A stretch of DNA of 64,000 nt, taken from the NCBI RefSeq assembly GCF_018283455.1, contig NZ_JAAMTH010000001.1:1469501-1533500 (forward strand), written 5' to 3'. The notes beneath the pieces are model-generated. The model was given only the letters and a program-made list of their open reading frames with translations. It did no database searches and had not been told where the DNA came from. The stretch comes from Planococcus sp. MSAK28401. GTDB lineage: Bacteria > Bacillota > Bacilli > Bacillales_A > Planococcaceae. Position 1 is the first letter of the stretch, and each line of letters opens with the position of its first letter. A program made the position numbers and the translations under genes. Below, piece after piece: positions 21,905 to 48,376 of this stretch.

Positions 21905-21920
21905 GTTATTAATAGTAGAA

Positions 21921-21949
21921 ACGCCACTGCATATGCGGTGGCGTTTTTT
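21921..21949 (+). terminator. Terminator after minD
   Basis: ACGCCACTGCAT / ATGCGGTGGCGT folds into a stem followed by six T residues. Confidence 0.9.
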
Positions 21950-21982
21950 GTGTTGTAGAATTTAATAAAGAAGAAGTGTAGT

Positions 21983-22112
21983 GGCTGGCTTGCGCTCCGG
22001 GCGGATGCTTTCCGAGGGGTGGGAATCGAGCCTCCTCGTCGCAAAGAACACGCTCCTGCGGGGTCTCTCAAACCCACTGATCCCTCAGGAGTCACCGCCC
22101 TGCGCTCCAGCC
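21983..22112. repeat. Palindromic intergenic repeat, copy 2
   Basis: This 130-bp element is bounded by GGCTGG...CCAGCC, with further inner pairing GGGCGG/CCGCCC. On the reverse strand it shares GAGACCCCGC and GAGGAGGCT blocks with the element at 14453-14558, so both belong to one family in opposite orientation. It is non-coding. Confidence 0.65.
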
Positions 22113-22299
22113 ATTGTTGTAAACGGGATCTTTACAACCTCACTGTCGGTTTGAAGTAAGAGATATAGTTAACAATTCATAACATATTGTTGAAACAGGG
22201 ATTTTTATAAACGCAGAATCTTGCTAGTGCTAAACCAAAAAGATGTATAGTCTTTTTTCTATGACGGAAAGCATGGCAAGAAGTCTAGCAATGGCGAAA

Positions 22300-22878
22300 A
22301 CCCTGAGCCCTGCACCAATATTCCAAAATGACACGTATTCTCTCAGTCATAACACCGCTCAAATTGGATCTCGCAAAGCACACATCATGACAGGGAAGTG
22401 ATTCCCCCACTAGTCGGCAACTACCTATAGAAGCAGATCCGTTTAAACAAACACGAATCAACGGAATCTCCCAGCCGACCAGCGCCCAGGGTGAGCCGAT
22501 GCCGTAAGACAAGCGTTCTTCTTGGCTTATGGTAAGGGGCCAACCCAAAGCCGGGAGGCGACGCTCCACAATGATGCAAATTCGGACATAAGAAACATAG
22601 CCACACACTTTACCTTGCAAATTGCATAAGTCAGCAGGGAAGCGATTCCCCCGCTAGCCGGCAACTAACTATAAAAGCAGATCTGTTTAAACAAACATAA
22701 ACCAATGAAATCTCTAAGCCGACCAGCGCCCAGGGTGAGCCGAAGCAATGAGACAGATGTTCTTTCTGGCTCATTGTGAGAGGCCATCCCAAAGCAGTGA
22801 GGCGGAATTCTAAAATGACGAAAACTCGAACACAAACAACATCGCCACACTCTTCATTCTCAAAATCACAAACTAATA
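22300..22878. repeat. Tandem array of a ~244-bp structured repeat (one partial plus two full units)
   Basis: Landmarks recur every 243-244 bp: CAGGGAAG at 22391 and 22635, and an ATG-centred motif at 22328, 22571 and 22815. The full units are roughly 22391-22634 and 22635-22878; the stretch before 22391 matches only the unit's end. Both units keep an identical core of about 26 bp beginning AGCCGACCAGCGCCCAGGG. Each has a GGGAA-GNRA-TTCCC hairpin at its start (22393-22406 and 22637-22650) and a 12-bp hairpin with a TTCTT-ending loop (22502-22532 and 22746-22776). Reverse-strand open frames across it are judged spurious. No gene is supported between 22113 and 22955. Confidence 0.75.
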
Positions 22879-22955
22879 AAGAAGCGATATTTAATTCCTT
22901 TAACCACAATCCAAGGAATCGAAAGAACGCATCACCAACTCTTTTCAGTTCTCTG

Positions 22956-22985
22956 TTGACGCGGGTCTCTCCCGCATGATATTAT
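22956..22985 (+). promoter_or_regulatory. Promoter of the rplU operon
   Basis: TTGACG (22956-22961) and TATTAT (22980-22985) are 18 bp apart, just upstream of the L21 leader. Confidence 0.75.
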
Positions 22986-22998
22986 TCTAATGTTATGT

Positions 22999-23075
22999 TT
23001 GTAGCGCACCCGTGCTACAACCGCTCGAACCAGGTTGTTAAGCATCGCAAGATCACCTGGAGAGGCGAGTCTTAG
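22999..23075 (+). ncRNA. L21 leader (autoregulatory ribosomal protein leader)
   Basis: The 5' untranslated region of rplU holds two hairpins: TTGTAGC / GCTACAA (22999-23005 and 23014-23020), and a larger one with CGCTC and CCAGGT closing against ACCTGG and GAGGCG (about 23022-23070). Position and shape match the Firmicute L21 leader family, in which L21 is thought to bind its own mRNA. The family match is by recognition, not by a covariance search. Confidence 0.75.
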
Positions 23076-23096
23076 TCTAAGAGGAGGTGCAAGGAT

Positions 23097-44766: not shown

Positions 44767-44799
44767 TGATTTATTCTACTTATATAATTTTTGCTGAAG

Positions 44800-45053
44800 A
44801 CGGAGAAAGTAGTTGTGAGCATCGACTGAAAAGAGAGGGAAAGCCCCGGGCTGAAAGCTTTCCTGCAGGGATCTGCAACGAACAACACTCTTGAGGTTCT
44901 TTACTGAACGGCGCCTTGCGCTTATTAGGCTAAGACGGTTCCGGCCGTTATCCGGACAGAGAGGGCGCAGAAACTTGCGTCAACTAGGGTGGAACCGCGG
45001 AAGCTAATTTTTAGCTCTCGTCCCTTGCGTAAGCAAGGGGCGGGGGCTTTTTT
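44800..45053 (+). promoter_or_regulatory. T-box riboswitch upstream of hisS
   Basis: The leader contains the T-box AGGGTGGAACCGCGG (44986-45000), which pairs with uncharged tRNA's acceptor end. An alternative terminator (about 45013-45053) has AGCTCTCGTCCCTTGC pairing with the GC-rich right arm and a T run. A CAC His codon at 44886-44888 inside GAACAACACTC is the best candidate specifier. This means hisS-aspS transcription rises when tRNA-His is uncharged. The exact 5' end and stem I boundaries are estimated. Confidence 0.9.
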
Positions 45054-48188: not shown

Positions 48189-48376
48189 AGAGAATCCTGA
48201 TGTGTTCGTTTTTAGCAATTCGATTTTGACCCAACATTTTGTCGTCGGGAGACCTACATATCGCCATGGCTAACATGCCTTAACGGGAAGTTATAAGTGG
48301 TGATGCGGTCACCCACCTGCTATAAGCGGGTTCAAACGATGCGCAACACAAAGGACGGCACGATCGGGATTCTTCT
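48189..48376 (+). ncRNA. ssrS: 6S RNA (SsrS/BsrA type)
   Basis: The 188-nt interval has a strong closing stem: AGAATCCTGAT (48191-48201) pairs with ATCGGGATTCT (48363-48373). The middle is long and mostly double-stranded with an open centre, as in 6S RNA, which mimics an open promoter and sequesters sigma-A RNA polymerase. A TATACT -10 lies at 48178-48183, just before the 5' end. Position between aspS and tcdA (yrvM) is that of bsrA in B. subtilis. A terminator follows. Confidence 0.85.

Follow-up and report, generated by a model that had tools for sequence, protein, structure and literature searches.

The gap between minD and rplU in the window, by which we mean the whole 64-kb stretch of DNA analysed here, contains two diverged copies of one sequence in tandem, and the question it raises is whether these copies are an unrecognised structured RNA, a mobile hairpin element, or something else, such as a leader of rplU or a coding repeat. 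The copies form a direct repeat (22391-22610 and 22635-22854; spacing 244 bp, 80% identity over 220 bp), which is the sole TRF row in the window; positions 22300-22390, the start of the interval originally flagged, fall outside it. The array lies downstream of the minD terminator and upstream of a promoter-like site and the L21 leader of rplU, and its features are the following.

22391..22634, plus strand: repeat unit 1 (244 bp), from the direct repeat and TRF; covariance-model match at 22459-22564, 102.4 bits
22635..22878, plus strand: repeat unit 2 (244 bp), similarity clear to about 22854; covariance-model match at 22703-22808, 106.3 bits
22474..22559, plus strand: folded rod of unit 1, outer helix to terminal hairpin, from the structure of covariance model R1 and pair counts
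22718..22803, plus strand: folded rod of unit 2, from the structure of covariance model R1 and pair counts
22502..22532, plus strand: terminal hairpin of unit 1 with A.G mismatch and 7-nt loop, from sequence and RNA folding
22746..22776, plus strand: terminal hairpin of unit 2, from sequence and RNA folding
22393..22406, plus strand: GGGAA-GTGA-TTCCC motif of unit 1, weakly supported as a hairpin
22637-22650, plus strand: GNRA motif of unit 2 (GGGAA-GTGA/GCGA-TTCCC), weakly supported as a hairpin
21917..21948, plus strand: intrinsic terminator after minD, upstream of the array
22956..22985, plus strand: promoter-like site between array and rplU, TTGACG-18-TATTAT, 10 of 12 matches; context, not element
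23009..23082, plus strand: L21 leader of rplU, Rfam RF00559, 63.3 bits; context, not element

Promoter-like sites numbered three, against 1.5 expected from shuffles. We considered a cis-regulatory leader for rplU and rejected it, because, downstream of the array, rplU has a promoter-like site and an L21 leader to itself, and because other arrays adjoin unrelated genes. The same gap holds a separate GC-rich palindromic repeat at 21980-22115, and GC-rich palindromes were seen by eye upstream of many arrays in the same genome. Elsewhere in the window, Rfam identifies a T-box leader and a 6S RNA (44788-45028 and 48191-48374).

The sequence-only reading had described one hairpin, with a common A-G mismatch and seven-base loop, in two diverged units of about 244 bp that also share an identical core of about 26 bp, and all of this was borne out. 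Between the terminal hairpins, four pairs have changed on both sides and one has gone from G-U to A-U, the mismatch and the 7-nt loop are kept in both, and a stretch of 26 bp is identical between the units. RNA folding gives -13.3 and -14.5 kcal/mol (z -3.5 and -2.8), values matched by 1 and 3 of 200 shuffles, respectively. The GNRA motif that the same reading had placed at the start of each unit is indeed present in both, but its standing as a hairpin gains no support from covariation: the motif occurs in 53 of 84 units of the genome, in one subtype only, compensatory changes on both sides of a pair are absent from its arms, and in 17 of the 53 the third pair is A.C.

Copies of the repeat abound beyond this gap. 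In the genome of the window (G000), blastn returned 74 matches, iterated nhmmer 84 in the fetched stretches, and the covariance model of the core (R1) 83 (E up to 0.01) among the 150 of 1367 candidates that were scored. The fetched copies fall into 36 groups of one to five units, mostly in tandem, and the units belong to two subtypes with periods near 247 and 216. The gap between minD and rplU is thus one of 36 sites examined in its own genome, and the family is not tied to it, which is a point where the sequence-only reading falls short. At the level of the order, R1 matches 88 of 261 genomes and 5 of 19 genera, including all 46 Planococcus genomes; in a sample of the class, at least 19 of 398 genomes from 2 of 145 genera match, all of them in the same family, with nine candidates scored per genome so that weak copies may be missed. 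A family pattern derived from this clade finds at least 120 stretches in the named genome collection, all of them in Planococcus. Copy number per genome runs from 2 to at least 101, the highest count (G128). Array forms vary: the distant Planococcus genome G173 carries mostly single units and one array of seven, unit orientation alternates in G128, and 16 of 18 groups in G146 are divergent, with a different subtype on each arm pointing away from a sequence-conserved centre of about 90 nt (L266-L283). A phage or plasmid origin was considered and rejected, given that exact-pattern scans of viral contigs gave no match, the phage collection contained no match to the family, and the plasmid scan found one Planococcus record. 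A 7,049-bp linear "plasmid" of Planococcus sp. MB-3u-03 (L304, NZ_CP025126.1) carries an array; it could be a piece of chromosome. In five units, extra sequence in the hairpin lengthens the core from about 106 to 147-193 nt (L025:4010-4156, L044:4226-4408, L050:3943-4133, L050:4275-4440 and L052:11619-11811); the insertion in L052 is palindrome-like.

Searches with Rfam, at the gathering score in the window and at relaxed thresholds in the region and 14 diverged loci, gave no match to the units at threshold; one sub-threshold match overlaps a unit, at 26.7 bits where the gathering score is 230. Neither did searches of open-licence papers turn up this repeat family. It is a new family of a known kind, that of small structured interspersed repeats, in which the arrays and the terminator-copying insertion described below are unusual.

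The core of about 105 nt is an irregular rod, in which an outer helix is followed by two G-C pairs, a 4-pair helix, a 2x2 internal loop, a 3-pair helix, a 3x4 internal loop and a long hairpin with the A.G mismatch. We examined its pairing in four alignments. A2 covers the genome of the window and holds 60 of the 65 units that remained after near-identical ones (above 93%) and those shorter than 100 nt were removed, the five left out having long loop insertions; A3 comprises 100 matches, 95 of them distinct, from five genera, and keeps the antisense overlapping matches L185 and L186; A4 covers G146 and G173; and A5 the minD-rplU site. In A3, the 27 pairs form in 89.2% of cells versus 73.2% in shuffles, and two-sided changes occur at 23 of the 27. 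The covariation score is 0.419, compared with 0.145 when shuffled and at most 0.081 when the partners are slid, and none of 500 shuffles reaches it; A2, A4 and A5 agree with A3. In these comparisons, alignments made with the model lean towards its structure, and relatedness is lost in the shuffles. Conservation of the outer helix is poor (66-82% of cells), which is partly an alignment effect; of the distinct rows, 89 of 95 in A3 and 91 of 96 in A4 have the A.G mismatch. With 83 model matches in one genome and a covariation score that no shuffle attains, it is confirmed that the observation exceeds chance. The suspicion of an unrecognised structured RNA is supported, in that further copies covary strongly and the units match no Rfam family.

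Folding by the plus strand predicts that pairs change by way of G-U and not A-C intermediates. G-U cells outnumber A-C cells in the inner helices of A2 (30:9, p 0.001) and A4 (76:20, p 7e-9), and by 31:1 in the minD-rplU units (hand count, most such cells lying at two pairs). In A3, the most diverse alignment, the ratio is 35:24 and not significant (p 0.19; cells are not independent), and in a subset of its helices it is 31:9. The plus-strand bias that had been read from the two window units is therefore found in most of the counts. This wobble bias supports a single folded strand, although folded single-stranded DNA would give the same bias; the core would fold as a plus-strand single strand, most likely RNA.

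Copies that have stayed in place show how the fold fares over time. The minD-rplU array is present in all 14 close genomes (the genome of the window included), with one to four units; the HMM that matched these found nothing in 16 loci of a second Planococcus clade. At this site, 27 distinct units from 13 species were compared (L249, with three units, was dropped, and the count covers the inner two helices, 19 of the 27 pairs): on average, they differ at 15.3% in paired columns and at 12.0% in unpaired core columns. Only 8 of 513 cells are unpaired, and pairing is kept in 48 cells changed on both sides and 28 changed on one. Since paired columns diverge like unpaired ones and yet stay paired, the sequence drifts but the fold persists. 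Gene conversion between functional copies, instead of selection on every one of them, might explain this, and it could preserve pairing even where there is no function. More widely, 111 of 129 arrays of other Planococcus species share their flanks with a G000 array, with one to five units and in all 111 cases in the same orientation; the other 18 include some near the end of the fetched stretch. One site in P. citreus differs from G000 by about one unit (239 bp), and mean identity of units is 81% within an array and 62% between arrays. The fixed sites, the varying number of units and the identity within arrays together indicate that arrays grow and shrink in place. Between the Planococcus clades, a single G173 group of 25 has the same neighbours as a G000 array, and in the opposite orientation; of the 18 G146 groups, none has. 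With sites hardly common to G000, G173 and G146, dispersal happened separately in these lineages.

Direct traces of insertion were found in G173, where 4 of 25 groups (L287, L288, L289 and L300) are flanked by 27-29-bp direct duplications of an intrinsic terminator. In controls, the figure was 2 of 200 for unmatched flank pairs and 0 of 55 for gaps lacking an element. The duplication at L289 is incomplete, its left copy having the 5' part only and not the 3' half of the terminator. A fifth case, L183 in G044, has a 35-bp duplication (the overlapping antisense matches L185 and L186 were dropped in that scan), and the stretch between the duplicates measures 157-245 bp. We searched predicted empty-site queries in 11 related genomes, counting rows by hand. 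The junction was matched in one piece in 8 of 11 genomes for L287, 8 of 11 for L288, 10 of 11 for L289 (two of them partial) and 2 of 11 for L300, and alignments of chosen relatives show one terminator where G173 has two. Filled sites were found in G069 at L288 and L300 and in G171 at L289, the query there matching as two pieces that overlap in the duplicated stretch. As a complication at L288, G171 carries a 42-nt stretch that is also present in the insertion. No empty site came out for L293, which has no duplication and was included in the same query. None of the 18 G146 groups and none of the 36 G000 arrays showed a duplicated terminator; in G000, a single array reached the threshold with a stretch that is not a terminator (control 1 of 288); older insertions may have lost the duplication. 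A unit at L224 lies next to a duplicated stretch of 80 bp (62 score units), which is not terminator-like and was not counted for insertion. The mobile hairpin element that the sequence-only reading had held possible is consequently a good description: the family is dispersed, and its insertions have empty sites in relatives.

What the fold and the mobility serve can be read in more than one way. The copies might be miniature elements of the MITE or REP type, whose hairpin is offered to a transposase as single-stranded or cruciform DNA, RNA playing no part. They are dispersed, intergenic and mobile and have no conserved reading frame, and, as for tolerated repeats, they are absent from divergent promoter gaps: none of the 36 G000 arrays lies in a divergent gap, compared with 36 of 136 other gaps (p 0.0001), and none of 25 in G173, compared with 15 of 55 (p 0.004); in G146, 3 of 18 groups do. 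The excess of G-U over A-C in A2, A4 and the minD-rplU units speaks against a purely DNA-level element, yet folding of one DNA strand is compatible with it, and residents keep their pairing across 13 species at one site; on balance, we consider such an element rather unlikely, if worth keeping in mind. A different proposal is that the arrays are genes for trans-acting non-coding RNAs, for example sponges of an RNA-binding protein, with mobility as a mere means of multiplication. The fold kept in resident copies, the same site and orientation between species in 111 of 129 arrays, a dosage varying from one to five units and the 16 of 18 G146 groups that diverge around a conserved centre of about 90 nt would all suit it. 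However, inspection of the array leaders by eye revealed no convincing conserved promoter, sites are hardly common to the two Planococcus clades, and copy number ranges from 2 to at least about 100 per genome, so that we think RNA genes of this sort unlikely.

It is also conceivable that the repeats act in the 3' UTR of the upstream gene, whose mRNA they would end or make more stable. An array follows a same-strand gene in 32 of 36 cases in G000, and in codirectional gaps a terminator stands after the gene in 18 of 20 gaps with an array versus 43 of 88 without (p 0.0008). But arrays lie beyond the gene's own terminator, as at minD, there is no orientation bias in G173 (15 of 25 after a same-strand gene, hand count), and G146 arrays point both ways. 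A comparison of terminators beside G173 elements (9 of 16 versus 9 of 35) is not significant (p 0.057). A role in the 3' UTR has a small chance of being correct. Next to none is left for a coding repeat read from the reverse strand. Two ORFs there, of 111 and 92 aa, do cover the units, but the three ORFs tested in the region have no Pfam match at E up to 1, so that the known protein family named by the sequence-only reading as a counter-argument did not turn up, not every unit length (244, 247 and 216) is divisible by three, and the changes in the hairpin compensate one another.

Taken together, the units in the window probably belong, as residents, to a mobile non-coding repeat family of Planococcaceae that inserts at terminators and whose core forms a rod from the plus strand, most likely as RNA. 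Dispersal, fold and covariation, de novo insertion next to or within intrinsic terminators with a duplication of 27-29 bp, and tandem change of copy number at fixed sites are all observed. As to the mechanism, a putative enzyme acting in trans would insert an element of about 160-245 bp via staggered cuts around the terminator hairpin; with both strands cut around it, repair would leave the hairpin duplicated. Such an insertion would come at little cost, since both sides keep a terminator or, failing that, one full copy at least survives. Unequal recombination could then give rise to arrays of one to seven units, and what keeps the fold might be a use of the RNA: mobility could depend on recognising it, or a host RNA-binding protein could bind it. 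A SINE-like version, in which a short, non-autonomous structured RNA is the intermediate and is reverse-transcribed into intrinsic terminators by an enzyme encoded elsewhere, has a slim chance in our view; if true, it would explain at one stroke why the plus-strand fold is kept, why target duplications are long and variable, and why terminators are preferred.

Among known systems, the YPAL (RU-2) repeats of Yersinia appear to be the closest kind, as judged by description and not by sequence. In the available excerpts of their description, they are small intergenic non-coding repeats that lack terminal inverted repeats and fold by internal ones, they have duplications of 3-26 bp at or next to dyad symmetry, where the Planococcus family has long, variable ones of 27-35 bp, and their sites occur empty and filled in relatives (PMC2229807). 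Transcription together with upstream genes is a further YPAL trait, and YPAL insertion appears to follow the course proposed above for the Planococcus family. The Planococcus units are intergenic and fold internally. Both the duplications and the empty and filled sites recur in Planococcus, with variable duplications at dyads in G173 (4 of 25 groups versus 2 of 200 controls) and at L183, and with empty and filled sites in relatives. Unlike YPAL as given in those excerpts, the Planococcus family belongs to another phylum and has tandem arrays, the two-subtype divergent arrays of G146 and a fold that covaries across five genera. The bcr1-bcr18 repeats of the Bacillus cereus group are likewise numerous, interspersed and intergenic in Bacillales; in the excerpted description, bcr1-3 are called MITE-like and some bcr have a conserved secondary structure and are transcribed, whereas a duplication of terminators is absent from it (PMC3446304), and this likeness, too, is one of description and not of sequence. 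Group IIC introns, according to the part of the source available, are mobile structured RNAs that insert at intrinsic terminators (PMC4424553), as does the Planococcus family. The latter, however, is far shorter and duplicates its target, and a search for a group II intron RNA core in 21905-23000 gave no match at E up to 10. Insertion of such introns is not known to duplicate the target. The BOX elements of Streptococcus are modular, tandemly repeated, structured and intergenic; they differ in modules and host, and are likened here by description only.

The repeat adds a structured-RNA family to a bacterial family for which none is described in Rfam or the literature searched. It also provides a clear case, with empty sites, in which insertion copies a transcription terminator and may leave both neighbours terminated. 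The covariance model permits the annotation of regions that are now blank or filled with spurious ORFs. Finally, because the fold is kept in resident copies, it can be tested whether such repeats are merely tolerated or work as RNA.
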